45,045 bases of DNA, from positions 1-45,045 of the forward strand of contig MAEO01000053.1 of the NCBI GenBank assembly GCA_001683985.1. The letters are read 5' to 3'. Of the stretch, positions 26,923 through 40,039 are shown piece by piece. The DNA is from Smithella sp. M82. Its GTDB lineage: Bacteria; Desulfobacterota; Syntrophia; Syntrophales; Smithellaceae. The position numbers and the translations under genes are program-made. Under the pieces are notes generated by a model that made no database searches, was not told the DNA's origin, and was given only the letters and a program-made list of their open reading frames with translations. Every line of letters begins with the position of its first letter. Within the stretch, counting starts at the first letter, position 1.

Positions 26923-28557
26923 TTATAATACGTATTTAATATTTAATCTTTCGGCCGCGGCCGCGTCGTCAATTCCCAACGCATCGGACATACCGATAGG
27001 CAGGGATGTGGAACGTCCCAGCGGCGCGAAAATTTTCTTCAATTCCGTGTCAAAATTTAAATATACATCCACAATCCGCTGGGCAACTTTTTCCGGATCA
27101 AGCCTGCGGTCCAGGCGTGAATCCTGCGAGGTAATGCCTTTGGGACATACGCCGATATTACAGACGTTGCAACGGTCGGCTTCCGAACCCAGACATCCCG
27201 CGGCCGCCTGCATGATATATTTTCCGGTCTGCACGCCGCTTGCGCCCAGCATGATTAGCGCTGCGGCATTGGCGGCCAAATTACCGTTTTTCCCGATACC
27301 GCCTCCGGCAAAAAGAGGGATTTCGTTTTGCTTGCCCAGTTTGACCAGATTCAGATAAGCGTCGCGCAGGTTGCTGGCAAGGGGATGTCCCATATGATTC
27401 ATGGAGACATTATAGGCAGCGCCTGTGCCACCATCTTCGCCGTCAATCGCCAGTCCGGCCGCATAGGGATTCCGGGTCAGATTGTTCAGAACGGCCAGGG
27501 TCGTGCTGGTTGCGGATATTTTCGGATACACCGGCACGCGAAAACCCCACGCCATGTACATGGACTGAATCATCTTGGCCACGGCTTCTTCAATGGAGTA
27601 TTTGGTTTGATGCGTGGGCGGGCTGGGCAGGCTCACGCCCTGTGGTACGCCGCGAATGGCGGCAATCAGTTTATTGACTTTGTACCACATCAGCAGTCCG
27701 CCGTCACCGGGCTTGGCGCCCTGGCCGTATTTGATTTCTATCGCGCAGGGATCTTCCTTCATGTAAGGCAGATTGTGAATAATTTCATCCCAGCCAAAGT
27801 AACCGCTGGCGATCTGCAAAATAACATATTTCAGAAAACGGGATTTCAACAAGCGCGGAGGACATCCGCCTTCACCGGTGCAAATGCGCACGGGCATGCC
27901 CAGTTCTTCATTGAGATACGCCACGCCCATCTGCAAGCCTTCCCACATGTTCGGCGAAAGCGCGCCGAACGACATGCTGCCGATGACCAGAGGATAGATT
28001 TCGCGCACCGGCGGCATCCAACCGTTTTCCCGGCTGACTTTGAGCATTTCTTCCGGCGGCAAAATTCTGCCCAACAGCGTCCTTAGCTCAAATTCATGAC
28101 GTCCCGCATCCAGAGCGGGGTCGGTCAGCATGGAAATGCGCACAAATTTGATTTTATCCAGAACGCTGTCGGCGGAATTACGCCTGCCGCCCCGGCGGCG
28201 GGGCTCGCCTCCCTGATTGACATGAAACCTGAACTTGTCTATTTCGTTACTGCGCAAGGGCATAATTGCGCCGTTGGGACAGACCAGATTACACATGCCG
28301 CAGCCGACACAGGCGTGCGCGACGTCGGTACGCTGATCGATTCCGAAATAAACGGAAAGCAAATTGCCCGGTTTTTCTTCCAGACCGATCGGTACCTGCA
28401 GGGTGCGTTTGCGATGCACACCCAGTTCAATGGCGCGGACCGGGCAAACAGTGGTGCACTGCCCGCAGAGTGTGCATTTATCTTTATTCCACATAATCTG
28501 CCAGGGCAGATCCTTGACGCTTAATGTGGATGGGTTAATGGTTCCAACTGATTCCAT
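26923..28557 (-). CDS. Glutamate synthase FMN-binding central subunit (archaeal-type GltB2)
   Basis: A 544-residue protein with an N-terminal ferredoxin-like domain (CTLCGQCTTVCP near residue 31 and CVGCGMCNLVCP near 83) and the FMN-binding glutamate synthase barrel. Barrel landmarks are PLVIGSMSFGALSPNM, CTGEGG, the KYGQGAKPGDGG loop, and IDGEDGGTGAAY. The 3Fe-4S cysteines appear in DRCNVCNIGVCPKGITSQD. It makes glutamate from 2-oxoglutarate and ammonia released by the amidotransferase subunit, which is encoded separately and overlaps by 37 bases. This is the split form of glutamate synthase seen in archaea and some anaerobes, not the large single GltB. Confidence 0.92.
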   Translation of the reverse strand: MESVGTINPSTLSVKDLPWQIMWNKDKCTLCGQCTTVCPVRAIELGVHRKRTLQVPIGLEEKPGNLLSVYFGIDQRTDVAHACVGCGMCNLVCPNGAIMPLRSNEIDKFRFHVNQGGEPRRRGGRRNSADSVLDKIKFVRISMLTDPALDAGRHEFELRTLLGRILPPEEMLKVSRENGWMPPVREIYPLVIGSMSFGALSPNMWEGLQMGVAYLNEELGMPVRICTGEGGCPPRLLKSRFLKYVILQIASGYFGWDEIIHNLPYMKEDPCAIEIKYGQGAKPGDGGLLMWYKVNKLIAAIRGVPQGVSLPSPPTHQTKYSIEEAVAKMIQSMYMAWGFRVPVYPKISATSTTLAVLNNLTRNPYAAGLAIDGEDGGTGAAYNVSMNHMGHPLASNLRDAYLNLVKLGKQNEIPLFAGGGIGKNGNLAANAAALIMLGASGVQTGKYIMQAAAGCLGSEADRCNVCNIGVCPKGITSQDSRLDRRLDPEKVAQRIVDVYLNFDTELKKIFAPLGRSTSLPIGMSDALGIDDAAAAERLNIKYVL

Positions 28558-29913: not shown

Positions 29914-31509
29914 CTAGGGATTTGTTCCGTTTGCAGCGCTTGTTGCGCCTGCCTTCTTTTTAAACAACTTCGTGTTGATTCCCATTTTCGATATTTTGTA
30001 CTGAATAACTCGCTTGGTTGTTCCCAGTTTCCTGGCCGCTTTCGTCTGATTGCCGCCGGTTTCTTCCAATGCTTCTATTATTAAAGCTCTTTCCTGGGCT
30101 TCGACAACAGAAGAAAGCTTGCTTTTATCTTTTTTTTCAATTTCCTGCCCCTTGATCTGCAACGATGGCGGAAGATGCTGACAATCTATCGTATCGGTTT
30201 TGGACAATAAGACGGCCCGCTCGATGCAGTTTTCCAATTCGCGAACATTGCCCGGCCACTTGTGATTCAGGAATGCTTCTATGGCCGCACTTGAGATTCT
30301 CTTTACATTCTTGCCCATTTCACTGCTGTATTTCAAAATAAAATGATCTGCCAATAGAATGACATCACTTCCGCGCTCGCGTAGCGGTGGCAAATATATT
30401 GGAAACACATTCAGCCGGTAGAACAAATCCGCACGGAAACGCTCACTAAGAATATCCTGCTCCAGGTTACGGTTGGTAGCGGCGATAATCCGCACATTGA
30501 CATTAATGACCCGTGAAGATCCCAGGGGCTGGAAACGTTTCTCCTGCAAAATCCGTAGAAGCTTTACCTGGGCGGCGGCGGAAAGTTCCCCGACTTCATC
30601 CAGAAAAATCGTGCCGCCGTTGGCTTCTTCAAAGCGTCCGCGGCGCTGGGTCAACGCTCCGGTAAACGCTCCTTTTTCATGACCGAACAATTCGCTTTCA
30701 ATTAATGTATCGGGAATGGCCGCGCAGTTAACCTGCACCATGGGGCCACCCTTGCGCGGGGAATTATTATGAATCGCCCGCGCGATTAATTCCTTGCCGG
30801 TGCCGGTTTCGCCCGTAATCAAAACGGTGGTGTTGGAATCGGCCACTTGTGCCACCAATCCGAAGACTTCCTGCATGGCCTTGGAATGACCGATAATATC
30901 CATGGACGGCGTGCGGTTCTGACCGACGATTTTGCGCAGGCGTCTGTTTTCTTCCTCGAGACCGCGGATATGAACAGCTTTGGCCATCAATTCGGCCACA
31001 GATGACAGCAAGGCAATTTCTTTATCAAGATTTTCAACTTGATGCGCAACCTTATCGGCGGACAAGACCCCCACAACATTGGAATCGTATATAATGGGAA
31101 CACAAAGGAAAGAAAGTTCCGCGCGGTTCAAATGACGGCGGGCACCGGTTCTATCCAGGAAATGTGTTTCCTGTCCGAGATTGGCTGCCGCCATCGGACG
31201 GCCCGTTTCCGCTACTTTTCCGGTGATGCCTTCACCGGGCTTATAGGTTACATCAAGACCGTCAATATTCACATCATGGGCGACATCCAGCCAGACTTCT
31301 TTTTTCTCCCGATCCACCAGCGAGATCATTCCTCGTTGCATGTCCAGACGCGCGCTCATTTCCTGCAGAACCTGCTCCATTTGTTCGCGCAAATCCAGGG
31401 GCTGCGCTAAAATTTTGGCTATGGCATGTAAGGCAGCCAATTCTTCATAGGTGTGAATGCTCAATTTGCTCTCTTTCTCACAAAATGATATTTTTGTAGT
31501 TTTGCTCAT
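29914..31509 (-). CDS. Sigma-54-dependent activator with GAF domain, NifA-like
   Basis: A 531-residue enhancer-binding protein. Residues 20-180 are a GAF sensor domain, residues about 205-435 the AAA+ domain with Walker A GETGTGKE (233-240) and the sigma-54 loop GAFTGA (280-285), then a Fis-type helix-turn-helix near 480-515 ([22 protein letters not shown]). The family activates transcription from sigma-54 promoters; NifA is the closest well-known relative in architecture. The gene sits directly above the gltB unit and its sigma-54 promoter, so it likely controls nitrogen assimilation. Two candidate binding palindromes are upstream of its own start (31538-31551 and 31609-31622), which suggests autoregulation. 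The signal sensed by GAF is unknown. Confidence 0.92.
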
Positions 31510-32561: not shown

Positions 32562-34730
32562 CTAGCTGATAAACAGCATTTCCCAGAACTTAGGCAAAGG
32601 CCACAATTCGTCATCAACGATTTCTTCCAGAGCATCGACATACTCACGCAGTTCGTCCATTTTTGTTTTCACCTTTGAGCATAACATTTCAGCTTTTTTG
32701 GCTTCATCGTGAATGGCCGACGCAGTTTCAACCTGCGTCAGAATTTCTTTCATTGTCTTGTAAACCTTATTGAGCAGATCCATTGAAGTTTTCAAAATTT
32801 CCTGCTGTACCGTCACGTCAGACTTGCCGCCAATAGTATCCCTGATACCCTTGATCGTATCGGTCAAAGTCTTTTGATACGCTGAAGTCACCGGGACAAT
32901 CTGGCTGAGACAAACATTTTTGAGGCACTTCACTTCGATTTCCAGAGCCTTGATGTATTTTTCGACATAAATCAGGTACCTGGACTTGAGTTCAACATTG
33001 GAAAGGACCTCATATTTTTTAAAAAGATTCAATGCCTTATCTGTAATTAAGGCCTTCAACGCCACAGGTGTTGTTTTAGCATTAGGCAGCTTTCTTTTTG
33101 CCGCTTCCACTTCCCATTCTTTGGTGTAATTATCACCGTTGAAGAGAACAGGTTTGATTTGTTTGATTTCTGCTTTCAGCACATCAAATACCGCTTGATT
33201 GATATTGTCTCCCTTGACTTTGATTTTTTCGGCAAGATCATCAAGGCTTTCCGCCACGATGGTGTTAATAACGACAGCTGGAAAGGAGATGGATTGCGAC
33301 GAACCGACGGCGCGGAATTCAAATTTGTTGCCGGTAAAGGCAAACGGCGACGTCCTGTTGCGGTCGGTATTATCCTTGCTCACAACGGGAACGGCGGAAA
33401 CGCCCAAATCGATGATTTCCTGGTCCGTTGCTTTGGTGACTACACCCGCTTCGATATCGGCTAGTATCTTGGTGAGCTGATCGCCGAGGAAAACAGAAAT
33501 GATAGCCGGTGGAGCTTCATTGGCACCCAATCTGTGGTCATTGGCATATGAGGAAACCGAAGCGCGAAGAATGTCGGCATGTTTATAAACCGCACTGATG
33601 ATGGCTATGAGGAAAACCAGGAATTGCAGATTGTCATGCGGTTTGTCACCGGGAGAGAGCAGATTGTTGCCGCTGTCGTCGGACAGCGACCAGTTCAGGT
33701 GCTTACCGGAACCATTGATGCGGGCAAAAGGCTTTTCGTGAAGCAGTGCCGCCAGACCGTGTTTCTTGGCCACAGACTTAATTGTATCCATCACGAGTTG
33801 ATTATGATCAACCGCCAGGTTAGCTTCTTCGAAAACGGGTGCGATTTCAAACTGACTGGGCGCAACTTCGTTGTGTCTGGTCTTGGCAGGAATACCAAAT
33901 TTAAAAAGTTCTTCTTCAACATCATGCATATAGGAAGATATTCTTTCCTTGATACTGCCGAAATACTGATCTTCCAGTTCCTGACCTTTGGCAGGAGGAG
34001 CGCCGACAACGGTTCTGCCGCAAAGCAGCAGGTCCTGTCTTTTATAAAAATAATCCATGTCGATCAAAAAATATTCCTGTTCGGGACCCAGTGTGGAAAA
34101 AACTTTTTTCACTTTTTTATTGCCCAGGAGCTTCAGCATATTGACGGCGCTTTTGCTGACCGCCTTGTTTGATCTGAGTAGAGGGGTTTTTTTGTCAAGC
34201 GCTTCGCCGGTGTAAGATATAAACACAGTGGGAATGCAAAGGGTTGTCGAAATGCCGCATCTGCGAATAAATGCCGGTGAAGAAATATCCCAGGCTGTGT
34301 ATCCACGAGCTTCAAATGTAGCTCTGATACCGCCGCTGGGGAAACTGGACGCATCCGGCTCGCCCTGGACAAGCTGCTTGCCAGAAAATTTCTCCACAAC
34401 TTCACCGATGCCAACCGGATCGGCAAATGAATCATGTTTTTCCGCCGTCATGCCCGTCATCGGCTGAAACCAGTGGGCAAAATGTGTTGCTCCCTTGGAT
34501 ATTGCCCACTCTTTCATGGCGTGGGCGACAATATTGGCTGTTTCAATATCCAGAGTCTTGCCCTCATGAATAATATCCATTAATTTCTTGTAAGTTTCTT
34601 TCGGAAGTTTTTCTTGCATAACCTTGTAACTGAAGGTATCTTCACCGTAATATTCCGAAACCGGAATCGATTTTTCTTTTTCTACAATGTAACTTCTTTC
34701 TGATGCTATCACCGGACTTACTTTCTTCAT
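32562..34730 (-). CDS. glnN: Glutamine synthetase type III, copy 2
   Basis: A 722-residue type III glutamine synthetase, close to the copy at 22365-24536 along its whole length with the same motifs ([70 protein letters not shown]). The C-terminal region is the most diverged part. A strong ribosome binding site (GGAGG) precedes the ATG. Upstream on the same strand are the remains of an ammonium transporter gene and a sigma-54-like promoter, so this copy may respond to nitrogen shortage. Having two type III enzymes but no visible type I enzyme in the window is notable. Confidence 0.95.
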
Positions 34731-34924
34731 GTTTCCTCCATCTAATTTTTTATTTTAATTGCAGTATTGCATATTTTTTAATCAGGATGTATTTTCTATA
34801 TATGTTCATAAAGCCGCTGCAATTCATTTCAAAATAAATTTCAACGGTATCAAATTAAAACTAAACTTTATTAGCATCTTCCATGCCAAACTGTTCTTTC
34901 AGAAGCTGAGAGCGAGTTTATTTA

Positions 34925-35242: not shown

Positions 35243-35340
35243 TACAATGTTGTATCACTTAAAAGAAAACACCCGAATAATGTGTTCTGATTTCGACGAT
35301 TGATGCATTTCGATTTACTAAAAAATTGTTCAACATTGTT
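35243..35340. promoter_or_regulatory. Two ACAA-N2-TTGT palindromes between divergent nitrogen genes
   Basis: TACAATGTTGTA at 35243-35254 and TTCAACATTGTT at 35329-35340 share the inverted ACAA/TTGT arms with a 2-base centre. They lie between a minus-strand and a plus-strand sigma-54-like promoter, at distances of roughly 60 to 170 bases from each, so one activator could serve both directions. The remaining sequence of this gap is A+T-rich without coding potential. Confidence 0.5.
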
Positions 35341-35400: not shown

Positions 35401-35415
35401 TGGCATAGATATTGA
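35401..35415 (+). promoter_or_regulatory. Sigma-54-like promoter upstream of the ATP-grasp gene
   Basis: TGGCATAGATATTGA has the -24 TGGCA and, 12 bases on, TTG at -12 followed by A instead of C. Phase is right, the -12 element is imperfect. It would give a leader of about 180 bases. Alternatively, a sigma-70-like TTGCCG with TATA-rich -10 follows near 35464-35495. Confidence 0.35.
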
Positions 35416-35610
35416 TGTTATAATTGCGTGTTTTTAATCTTGCCGACAAAGGGAAAATGACAATTGCCGGACAAAATTTTTTCTATATAGTATAAAATAA
35501 GCTTGTTATGCTTAGGAACAAAAGGCATTAGCAAACTCAACTTAAAAACAGGTGAGATAAACAAGAAATGTAAATTTGTTTATAAATAATTTTTTTGAAG
35601 GATCGATTTT

Positions 35611-38202
35611 ATGACACCATACACCAGAGTAAGCACAGGAATTAAGGGGCTGGATGAAATTCTCAGTTATCTCCAAATGGGAGACAATGTCGTTTTGCAG
35701 GTTGACGATATCGAAGACTATAAAAAATTTGTCGATCCTTACGTTAAAACAGCTCTGGCCAAAAATCGCCGGCTGGTTTACATGCGCTTTGCCAATCACG
35801 CGCCTGTTCTGGAAGACAACAAAAAAATAAAAATGTATAAGCTCAACGCCAACAAAGGCTTTGAATCCTTTTCCACCCAGGTGCATAATATTGTCCGGGA
35901 TGAAGGCAGGGATGTTTTCTACGTATTTGACTGTTTGTCGGATCTGCTGATTGCCTGGGCAACCGATTTGATGATCGGGAATTTTTTTGTCATCACCTGT
36001 CCGTATTTGTTCGAACTTAACACAGTAGCATATTTCGCTATTTTGCGCAGCCGTCACTCCTTCAAAACCGTGGCGCGAATCCGGGAAACAACGCAGGTTC
36101 TTTTGGATATTTACAATAATAAAGGTAAAATATACATTCATCCGCTCAAAGCGTGGAAACGCTACACTCCCACGATGTATCTTCCCCATGTTATGAAAGC
36201 TGAAAAATTTGTTCCCATCCTCAACAGCGCCGACGCGGCCAACATCTTGTCTTTCCTGACTGATAAAAACGTCACCAGCGGTGTGCGGAATCTTGACTAC
36301 TGGGATCGTATTTTTCTCAAGGCAAATACTATTATGGAAGATCCGAAAGCCGTACAGGAAAAGCAGGATATGGTGGAAACTCTTTCCCGGGTCATGATCG
36401 GACGGGAAAAAAGAATGTTGGCTCTGGTCAAAGAATATTTTACACTTGAGGATTTGCTCGAAATCAAAAAACGTCTCATCGGAACCGGTTTCATCGGCGG
36501 GAAATCGGTGGGCATGCTTCTGGCACGCAATATCCTGCGCAAAGACCCCTCAATGGACTGGCCCCAGGTATTGGAAATGCACGATTCTTTTTATATCGGC
36601 TCGGACATTTTTTATTCCTATATAGTGCAAAACGGATGGTGGAAACTTCTGATGGCACACAAAACGGAAGAGGGGTATTTCGAAGTCGCCCGCGAACTCA
36701 AAAGCAAAATGCTGCACGGCGTCTTCCCGGACGAGATCAAAGAACAATTTCAACTCATGCTGGAATATTATGGCCAGGCACCGATCATCGTCCGTTCCAG
36801 TTCGCTTCTGGAAGATGCTTTCGGCAACGCTTTTGCCGGAAAATACGAAAGTTATTTTTGCGTCAACCAGGGAACACCTGAGGAACGCTATAAAAATTTC
36901 GAAATTGCGGTGCGCAAGATTTTCGCGTCGACGATGAACGAAGACGCTCTGACCTACCGTTTGCAGCGTGGCATGGCCCAGCAGGATGAACAAATGGCCT
37001 TGCTCGTGCAGCGTGTATCCGGATCCCATCACGAAAATTATTTTTTTCCGGATATTGCGGGGGTCGGCCTGTCCTATAACACGTTCGTCTGGCAAAAGGG
37101 AATGGACCCCAAAGCCGGCCTGCTGCGGATTGTTTTTGGTCTCGGCACCCGGGCCGTCAATCGTGTGGAAAATGATTACCCGCGCATTGTCGCCCTCGAT
37201 GCCCCGCTCGTCAAACCCTTCAATAAACCGGAAGATATGAAGCGTTTCTCCCAGAATGAAGTTGACTTGCTGAATCTGCAGAAAAATGAATTCCAGACAG
37301 TGCCGGCCGACGAACTGATTTCCAATATGGAATCGCACCTCTTGAACCTTATCGCCATTCGCGACGCCGCCGCATCCGAATATTACCGGTCGCTGGGACG
37401 GAAAACAAAGGACGCCTGGATTCTGACGTTTGACGAACTATTTCAAAACACACCTTTCGCCAAGACCATGTCTAAAATGCTCAAGAAACTGGAACAGGTA
37501 TACCGTTATCCGGTGGATATCGAATTCACAGCAAACTCTGACCATGAGAGACAGCTAAGAATTAATCTTCTGCAGTGCCGACCGTTCCAAACCAAAGGGC
37601 ATTACAGCCGCCTCCAATTACCCGAAAAAATAAACAAAAACAAAATTCTCTTTCAGCAGGAGGCAAACTTCATGGGTGGCAGCATCTACCAGGCCATATC
37701 CCGGATCATTTATATTGATCCCAAGGGTTACGCAAAGTTAAGTGTCTCGGAAAAACACGAGGTTGCGCGACTCACAGGAAAATTGAACAAGCAGATCGGC
37801 AACCGTGAAAAAATGCCGACGATTCTCCTGGGGCCGGGACGCTGGGGAACAACCACCCCGGCAATGGGTGTTCCTATCACGTTTTCGGAAATCAATAACA
37901 TTACCGCTATCGGTGAAATAGCCTATCAGGAAGGGTCTTTGATTCCCGATTTATCCTTCGGCACGCATTTTTTCCAGGACATGGTCGAAATGGATATATT
38001 TTACATGGCCATATATCCAGAGAGAAAAGATGTCATTTTCAATTTGGCGTGGCTGGAAAAACAGTCCAATATCTTCACCGACCTGATGCCTGATGATCAA
38101 AAATACAAGTCTGTAATGAAGGTATATGATTTAAGAACAAAAGATCTGCGCCTGCTCTCGGATATTGTAACGCAGAAAATGATTTGCTTTTCCAATAAAT
38201 AG
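35611..38202 (+). CDS. Degenerate KaiC-like domain fused to a PEP-synthase-type ATP-grasp domain
   Basis: An 863-residue protein without an established function. Residues 1-230 resemble a RecA/KaiC fold (RVSTGIKGLDEILSYLQMGDNVVLQ), but the Walker A loop is missing: DDIEDYKKF stands where GxxGxGKT would be. Residues about 290-660 form an ATP-grasp domain of the PEP synthase/pyruvate phosphate dikinase type, with IIVRSSSLLEDAFGNAFAGKYES near 392 and LLQCRPFQTKG near 650. The phosphohistidine swivelling domain and the PEP-binding barrel of true PEP synthases are absent. The last 200 residues contain LLGPGRWGTTTPAMG near 738 and have no clear match. It is divergent from glnN2 and convergent with gdhA, with nitrogen-type promoter elements upstream, so a role linked to nitrogen or energy status is inferred. 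Confidence 0.8.
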   Translation: MTPYTRVSTGIKGLDEILSYLQMGDNVVLQVDDIEDYKKFVDPYVKTALAKNRRLVYMRFANHAPVLEDNKKIKMYKLNANKGFESFSTQVHNIVRDEGRDVFYVFDCLSDLLIAWATDLMIGNFFVITCPYLFELNTVAYFAILRSRHSFKTVARIRETTQVLLDIYNNKGKIYIHPLKAWKRYTPTMYLPHVMKAEKFVPILNSADAANILSFLTDKNVTSGVRNLDYWDRIFLKANTIMEDPKAVQEKQDMVETLSRVMIGREKRMLALVKEYFTLEDLLEIKKRLIGTGFIGGKSVGMLLARNILRKDPSMDWPQVLEMHDSFYIGSDIFYSYIVQNGWWKLLMAHKTEEGYFEVARELKSKMLHGVFPDEIKEQFQLMLEYYGQAPIIVRSSSLLEDAFGNAFAGKYESYFCVNQGTPEERYKNFEIAVRKIFASTMNEDALTYRLQRGMAQQDEQMALLVQRVSGSHHENYFFPDIAGVGLSYNTFVWQKGMDPKAGLLRIVFGLGTRAVNRVENDYPRIVALDAPLVKPFNKPEDMKRFSQNEVDLLNLQKNEFQTVPADELISNMESHLLNLIAIRDAAASEYYRSLGRKTKDAWILTFDELFQNTPFAKTMSKMLKKLEQVYRYPVDIEFTANSDHERQLRINLLQCRPFQTKGHYSRLQLPEKINKNKILFQQEANFMGGSIYQAISRIIYIDPKGYAKLSVSEKHEVARLTGKLNKQIGNREKMPTILLGPGRWGTTTPAMGVPITFSEINNITAIGEIAYQEGSLIPDLSFGTHFFQDMVEMDIFYMAIYPERKDVIFNLAWLEKQSNIFTDLMPDDQKYKSVMKVYDLRTKDLRLLSDIVTQKMICFSNK

Positions 38203-38311: not shown

Positions 38312-39679
<1,368 letters not shown>

Positions 39680-39700: not shown

Positions 39701-40039
39701 TCATGCATTCGCTATACATGGTATAGCTGTTTTAAAGGAAAGAACATCGATTCGGGCAATGGAAAGGCTGATTTTATCCCGGACGCGCGCGTTATTGATC
39801 TCATCCATACCCATGTTAGTAATAATTCTGCCGCCGCGTCGACCGACAAATTCAGTCAGTCCTCTTTCATCCATAAGCTTAAGATGATAGCGAACAGTTC
39901 TTTCACTTAGGTGAACCCCTCTTTCTTGCATTTTTCTCGCAATTAACCTTGCCCCCAAGGGGGTAGGATTTTTATTCAGTATCTTTAAAATCAATACGAC
40001 TTTCCTTTCTATGTCTTCCAGATTAAATAGTTGTTTCAT
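39701..40039 (-). CDS. NrpR-like winged helix-turn-helix protein lacking the effector domain
   Basis: A 112-residue protein whose residues 8-75 match the winged helix of the NrpR nitrogen repressors (ILKILNKNPTPLGARLIARKMQERGVHLSERTVRYHLKLMDERGLTEFVG). NrpR normally continues into one or two NRD domains of about 230 residues that bind 2-oxoglutarate. Here only the beginning of that linker (ISLSIARIDVLSF) is present before the stop codon, and the gdhA ribosome binding site follows at once. No frameshifted remainder is seen. It could be a stand-alone DNA-binding regulator of gdhA, or a truncated gene kept by chance. A perfect inverted repeat lies 9 bases before its start. Confidence 0.75.
   Translation of the reverse strand: MKQLFNLEDIERKVVLILKILNKNPTPLGARLIARKMQERGVHLSERTVRYHLKLMDERGLTEFVGRRGGRIITNMGMDEINNARVRDKISLSIARIDVLSFKTAIPCIANA

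Follow-up and report, generated by a model that had tools for sequence, protein, structure and literature searches.

The locus and the protein it encodes

The window, which is the whole stretch of 45,045 nucleotides analysed here, contains a gene for an 863-residue protein at positions 35611-38202. The gene lies between those for a type III glutamine synthetase (glnN2) and an NADP-specific glutamate dehydrogenase (GDH, gdhA), the position given in the preliminary description of this DNA. The neighbouring genes and the domains and motifs of the protein are as follows.

26923..28557, - strand: glutamate synthase large-domain protein of archaeal type (Glu_synthase match; recurrent neighbour)
29914..31509, - strand: NifA-like regulator with GAF, sigma-54 activator and Fis-HTH parts (profile matches; recurrent neighbour)
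32562..34730, - strand: type III glutamine synthetase, glnN2, divergent neighbour (GSIII_N and Gln-synt_C-ter matches)
35611..38202, + strand: 863-residue protein of pseudo-KaiC, ATP-grasp and C-terminal domains (open reading frame; full-length homologues of 56-99% identity in several phyla)
35611..36225, + strand: N-terminal pseudo-KaiC domain, about residues 1-205 (AF2 model; KaiC structure matches)
36226..36471, + strand: helical linker, about residues 206-287 (secondary structure of the AF2 model)
36472..37590, + strand: ATP-grasp domain of the PEP synthase/rifampin phosphotransferase type, about residues 288-660 (PF01326; fold matches to 5hv1 and 2ols; residue invariance)
37600..38199, + strand: C-terminal domain, residues 664-863, with a predicted swivel-like alpha/beta fold (AF2; low-Z matches; without a Pfam family)
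37831..37848, + strand: invariant GPGRWG motif, residues 741-746 (alignments)
37966..37968, + strand: invariant His786 in SxG[TS]HFF at a helix start, candidate phosphoryl acceptor (alignments; AF2 model)
38312..39667, - strand: NADP-specific GDH, convergent neighbour 109 bp away (NF006929, 756 bits vs 536)

Further to the left are genes for glutamine amidotransferase-like proteins, the NifA-like activator, glutamate synthase parts, a second type III glutamine synthetase, CarA and GuaA. We note that positions 16248-39667 make up a long glutamine/glutamate gene island, which holds CarB-like, GuaA and CarA genes, two type III glutamine synthetases, glutamate synthase parts, amidotransferases and GDH. 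A gene for an NrpR-like nitrogen regulator at 39701-40039 (- strand) is shortened to 112 residues; about 690 bp are missing at 39725-39729 of the window, through either a real deletion or an assembly error, and the gene is intact, with 333 residues, in a near-identical relative (L031:14129-15130).

The sole Pfam match of the 863-residue protein is PPDK_N, which covers residues 295-673 and scores 181 bits against a cut-off of 27. A full-length AlphaFold model was built from 28 natural homologues and has a mean pLDDT of 79; its confidence is low in the ATP-grasp loops and over residues 775-784. Residues 258-660 match the ATP-grasp domains of rifampin phosphotransferase (5hv1, Z 25.0) and PEP synthase (2ols, Z 24.2). 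K298, R395, E401, D402, Q467, E638, Q655 and R657 are invariant among 34 diverse sequences of all architectures, and this set covers the Lys of the G-rich loop, the Arg of VRSS, a Gln, a Glu, and the Gln and Arg of LQxRP. In rifampin phosphotransferase, Lys22 and Arg117 of the same type of ATP-grasp domain are documented as important (PMC4844700). With this Pfam score, a fold match of Z 24-25 and its catalytic residues intact, the protein keeps the PEP-synthase-type ATP-grasp domain attributed to it before.

Residues 1-218 have a RecA/KaiC fold, as a structure search with the model gave KaiC matches of Z ~20 and an rmsd of ~3 Å over ~200 residues. In place of the P-loop, all 28 aligned homologues have GDNVVxQVDDIEDYK or a similar string, with G24, D25, N26 and V27 invariant, and the FD of the Walker-B-like strand is retained. 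The Walker A motif (GxxxxGK[ST]) is absent from all 28 sequences, as already proposed for the KaiC-like part of this protein, and from the stand-alone pseudo-KaiC versions examined. With the P-loop lost across the whole family, a P-loop nucleotide sensor is an unlikely role for the KaiC-like part; the intact ATP site is that of the ATP-grasp domain.

The N-terminus differs between branches of the family and may be pseudo-KaiC, receiver-like, helical or of another kind, while the remaining core and its link to GDH stay constant. In a tree of the core thinned to 80% identity, the proteins with a pseudo-KaiC N-terminus form one clade. The pseudo-KaiC domain is also found without the core, fused to HTH_3 and Cupin_2, in proteins whose genes lie close to those for glutamate-synthase-like proteins, GDH or the core. 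A constant output with swappable inputs is the pattern typical of signalling proteins. We also observed stand-alone P-loop-less KaiC-like proteins of ~435 residues (L141:4571-5878, L142:11492-12796, L144:337-1644 and L223:9606-10868). The protein at L141 scores for HTH_3 and Cupin_2, the other three match it, and most of these genes adjoin glutamate-synthase-like, GDH or core genes.

The C-terminal domain and the relation to PEP synthase

According to the preliminary description, the protein lacks the phosphohistidine and PEP domains and is not a PEP synthase in the normal sense. Against the best-scoring PEP synthase equivalog models of NCBIfam, it reaches at most 66 bits, with cut-offs of 598-883. 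There is no Pfam match to a PEP/pyruvate barrel, and the chain ends after the 200-residue C-terminal domain. Without this barrel, the protein is therefore not a PEP synthase. No match to the phosphohistidine domain PF00391 was found by Pfam in the protein or in any of 58 C-terminal domains of the family. A PF00391 search of its own genome found no free-standing phosphohistidine partner that could restore a PEP synthase; the other PF00391 domains of this genome sit in large open reading frames of 594, 930 and 1425 residues. The domain in the 1425-residue frame (G000:C201:4198-4440, L163) belongs to an unusually large PEP-utiliser-type protein.

The C-terminal domain was also modelled alone by AF2 with 58 sequences, giving a pLDDT of 91. 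GPGRWG, E769, S782, G784 and H786-F-F are invariant over the 34 diverse sequences, and His786 is also invariant in the 58 close sequences. A helix begins at residue 122 of this model, and His786 is located at its start; the phospho-His of phosphohistidine domains sits at a helix start in the same way. Structure matches are weak (Z 4-6.5) and include the central domain of pyruvate phosphate dikinase (PPDK; 5jvj_B 373-509, Z 5.2) and the C-terminal domain of pyruvate kinase (2e28 476-582, Z 5.5). Many of the other fold matches, namely chaperonin apical domains, C-termini of LD-carboxypeptidases, protease-associated/apical domains and RraA-like proteins, probably have the swivelling beta/beta/alpha fold of SCOP as well. 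The central, phospho-His domain of PPDK is reported to span residues 380-515 with His456 (PMC5371819), and the C-terminal domain here resembles it in place and extent, the matched range being 373-509.

Further searches gave no such relation. The C-terminal domain encoded in the window has no Pfam family match, and a PDB sequence search, Foldseek against viral models and Pfam at lax thresholds found no relatives. Foldseek with the C-terminal model returned no PDB match at E <= 0.001, and profile-profile alignment with phosphohistidine domains (PF00391, hhalign) gave a probability of 0.05%, that is, no signal. The motif around His786 is SxG[TS]H, and T/SxxGGxxxH, the usual motif of phosphohistidine domains (PMC12167813), is absent before the histidine. 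Weighing the fold hints and the placement of His786 against the missing profile relation and motif, we consider it plausible that the modelled domain is a swivel-like phosphoacceptor, and we do not class it as a phosphohistidine domain. The reported lack of phosphohistidine and PEP domains thus stands as far as PF00391 and the barrel are concerned, but it needs qualification for the C-terminal 200 residues, which have swivel-like fold matches and an invariant histidine.

Recurrent pairing with genes for glutamate formation

GDH or glutamate synthase genes lie within ~10 kb of the homologue at 47 of 58, 16 of 19 and 26 of 38 loci in three samples. None of 20 control loci with true PEP-synthase-type genes, taken from related genomes, has such a neighbour. 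We note that the pseudo-KaiC item of the neighbour panel matches the protein itself, and 'any panel' neighbour counts were therefore excluded. At 80 homologue loci (56-99% identity), the neighbours are GDH in 37, a NifA-like activator in 36 and a glutamate synthase large-domain protein in 14; NrpR, ammonium transporters, PII, glutamine amidotransferases and type III glutamine synthetase (GSIII) also recur. In a sample of the phylum, the core is within 10 kb of GDH in at least 56 of 89 core-bearing genomes, at many of them within 0.1-2 kb.

The two genes are arranged in several ways: 33 pairs are convergent, 22 are in the order core-gdh, 21 are in the order gdh-core and 3 are divergent, and the reading frames of gdh and core overlap at three loci (L145, L146 and L149). 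GDH-linked members make up 56 of 79 scorable rows of the tree thinned to 80% identity and are found in every main branch. Some loci have an ammonium transporter, PII, CarA/CarB, GuaA, CTP synthase or GSIII in place of GDH. Among the named loci, those with GDH in the fetched stretch belong to MAGs of Nitrospirae, Spirochaetes, Omnitrophota and Margulisiibacteriota. The Parabacteroides distasonis homologue is divergent from one gdhA, with its start 196 bp away, and lies ~3.5 kb downstream of a second GDH gene. In several phyla, the core family is thus linked in the genome to GDH or glutamate synthase.

Neighbourhoods in other genomes are not random, and no partner domain that would restore a PEP synthase was found in the protein's own genome. 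Therefore, the two earlier proposals, that the protein is not a PEP synthase and that it is linked to glutamate or glutamine enzymes, are well supported. Adjacency to genes for glutamate formation from ammonia in several phyla suggests that the family serves this process as a partner or switch that has so far gone unrecognised.

Several other features of these loci are worth recording. The PHBJ genome has two core paralogues (L048 and L073), one beside GDH and the other beside a glutamate synthase operon. A family of ~200-residue proteins without a Pfam match (cluster 5; L096:7807-8415 and 13 other loci) adjoins GDH in Desulfobacteraceae-type loci. A ~1240-residue protein with GATase and SIS parts, GlmS-like but much longer, is encoded at L036:3804-7520 and 6 other loci; several loci of the Smithella type have its gene after that of the core.

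Nitrogen-type promoter motifs had been proposed upstream of the gene. Two sigma-54-like sites are present between glnN2 and the 863-residue protein gene.

34873..34888, - strand: sigma-54-like site facing glnN2, not the gene for the 863-residue protein (motif scan)
35401..35416, + strand: sigma-54-like element TGGCAT-N5-TTGAT, ~210 bp upstream of the start codon (upstream alignment)

The pattern TGGCA[CT]-N5-TTGA occurs in 20 of 25 upstream regions of close orthologues (protein identity of 76.8% or more) and in 19 of all 75 upstream regions, where shuffles predict 0.4; it is present in 1.2% of control windows. The -12 half of the element has GA where GC is usual. A scan that required GC in the -12 half found sites at 41 of 76 loci with 38 expected; we regard this null result as an artefact because the pattern was too strict, and the alignment then revealed TGGCAC-N5-TTGA. 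A NifA-box-like string, TGT-N10-ACA at 35337, was ruled out as a conserved site, as it occurs at 1 of 20 loci, and GGAA-N6-TTCC is at chance level in the upstream regions. The proposal of nitrogen-type motifs therefore holds for the sigma-54-like element, in its GA form, but not for the NifA-box-like string.

Possible role and comparison with known systems

We tentatively favour, as a real possibility at not quite even confidence, that the protein is a sensor-linked, ATP-dependent phosphotransferase, which acts on, or together with, enzymes that form glutamate, mainly GDH. Phosphotransfer to a protein partner, or else a nucleotide sensor, was also the mechanism suggested in the preliminary description, and is likewise a hypothesis. 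By analogy with the swivel domains of PPDK, PEP synthase and rifampin phosphotransferase, the ATP-grasp domain would bind Mg-ATP and phosphorylate an acceptor, most likely His786 on a mobile C-terminal domain. GDH (or glutamate synthase), or else a small effector, might then receive the phosphoryl group, and ammonia assimilation would be tuned in this way. In the present protein, the N-terminal module has a P-loop-less KaiC fold and would report the nitrogen or energy state. A bolder version, which we hold to be doubtful, is a new class of signalling phosphotransferase with interchangeable sensors (P-loop-less KaiC, receiver-like and others), in which the ATP-grasp domain would phosphorylate a histidine of a novel swivel domain, and this domain would modify GDH or glutamate synthase reversibly.

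Other explanations account for parts of the same evidence. The protein could be a PII-like allosteric regulator that binds GDH directly, without phosphotransfer, and senses ATP and a nitrogen metabolite by binding them with its ATP-grasp and C-terminal domains. The tight pairing with GDH and the overlapping genes suggest a complex, the KaiC-like N-terminus is already a pseudo-ATPase, and PII and Amt are frequent neighbours. However, no branch has lost any of the catalytic ATP-grasp residues, among them the Lys and Arg that rifampin phosphotransferase requires for its chemistry (PMC4844700), and we regard such a regulator as rather unlikely. Catalysis on a small molecule is an unlikely alternative in our view: a dikinase with its substrate site in the C-terminal domain might make a phosphorylated glutamate or glutamine metabolite, as HpeHI does with phenols and rifampin phosphotransferase with its drug substrate. 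The ATP-grasp domain is nearest in fold to rifampin phosphotransferase and HpeI, two-component small-molecule dikinases in which the ATP-grasp and swivel parts are separate have been described (PMC12167813), and the invariant Gly/Arg/His set of the C-terminal domain looks catalytic. Yet the swapped sensor-like N-termini (pseudo-KaiC, receiver-like, helical) are more like a signalling module, and the partners (GDH of two subfamilies, glutamate synthase, Amt-PII) share no common pathway step.

Co-localisation might also reflect shared nitrogen control of unrelated genes, with a general role of the protein under nitrogen limitation. The conserved sigma-54-like promoter fits this, as do the loci that have Amt, PII, CarA, GuaA or CTP synthase rather than GDH, but GDH is by far the commonest neighbour across phyla and branches, often as the next gene, and its reading frame overlaps that of the core in some genomes; we find this explanation very improbable. 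A PEP synthase or gluconeogenic enzyme that obtains its missing domains from another protein, in an incidental neighbourhood, would explain the PPDK_N domain and the weak similarity to PEP synthase models. It is largely refuted and effectively excluded by the scores far under every cut-off, the missing barrel, the location of the genome's own PF00391 domains in large reading frames elsewhere, and the 20 true PEP-synthase-type loci without a GDH or glutamate synthase neighbour.

The core family occurs in several phyla, from sediment anaerobes to gut Parabacteroides, and is unstudied as far as we searched. A literature search for PPDK_N proteins tied to GDH gave no relevant report. A 1996 paper by Baggio and Morrison, cited in PMC4539542, reportedly deals with GDH activity in B. 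thetaiotaomicron and a trans-acting gene. A vesicle paper naming a PEP synthase and a GDH mutant was rejected as a link, the genes being ~60 locus numbers apart. Nitrogen enters cells through GDH and glutamate synthase, and how these enzymes are controlled post-translationally in anaerobes and gut Bacteroidota is poorly understood; the core family offers concrete candidate factors for this control. Proteins that usually carry the label 'PEP/pyruvate-binding domain-containing protein' would then have a specific role. If the bolder version with reversible modification is true, ammonia assimilation would be under a covalent control system that is spread over several bacterial phyla and extends to gut Bacteroidota.

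One 'PEP/pyruvate-binding domain-containing protein' of Bacteroidota, WP_041525632.1 of Parabacteroides distasonis, has the core with GPGRWG and SQGTHFFQ and adjoins gdhA. It has a receiver-like N-terminus where the protein here has a pseudo-KaiC domain, and is also uncharacterised as far as we searched. PII proteins (GlnB/GlnK) and GDH-modifying regulators exert post-translational control of ammonia assimilation, the role that genomic context suggests here. Compared with PII, whose genes are neighbours at some loci, the protein is unrelated in fold and much larger. KaiC and other RecA-superfamily ATPases share the fold of residues 1-218 (Z ~20), but the N-terminus here is a single domain without Walker A, and the pseudo-KaiC family, unlike KaiC, is also joined to HTH-cupin regulators.

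Here, PPDK_N is directly followed by a domain that takes the position held by the phospho-His domain in PEP synthase (2ols) and PPDK (5jvj); the present protein differs from them in having neither barrel nor T/SxxGGxxxH and in scoring far under the NCBIfam cut-offs. Rifampin phosphotransferase of Listeria monocytogenes (5hv1/5fbs) has the same ATP-grasp fold (Z 25 over ~296 residues, 18% identity) with corresponding catalytic Lys and Arg, and a His-bearing, swivel-like C-terminal domain is plausible here as well. In contrast to that enzyme, the protein has no rifampin-binding domain, carries a sensor-like N-terminus, is linked to GDH, and has a C-terminal domain without sequence similarity to the phosphohistidine domain. 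The two-component dikinases HpeHI, CreHI and PpsAB also place a PPDK_N ATP-grasp domain in a new context (PMC12167813), and HpeI (9goj) is among the fold matches of the ATP-grasp domain here. These dikinases act on phenols, whereas the present family has a single-chain core with sensor domains, encoded beside glutamate genes.
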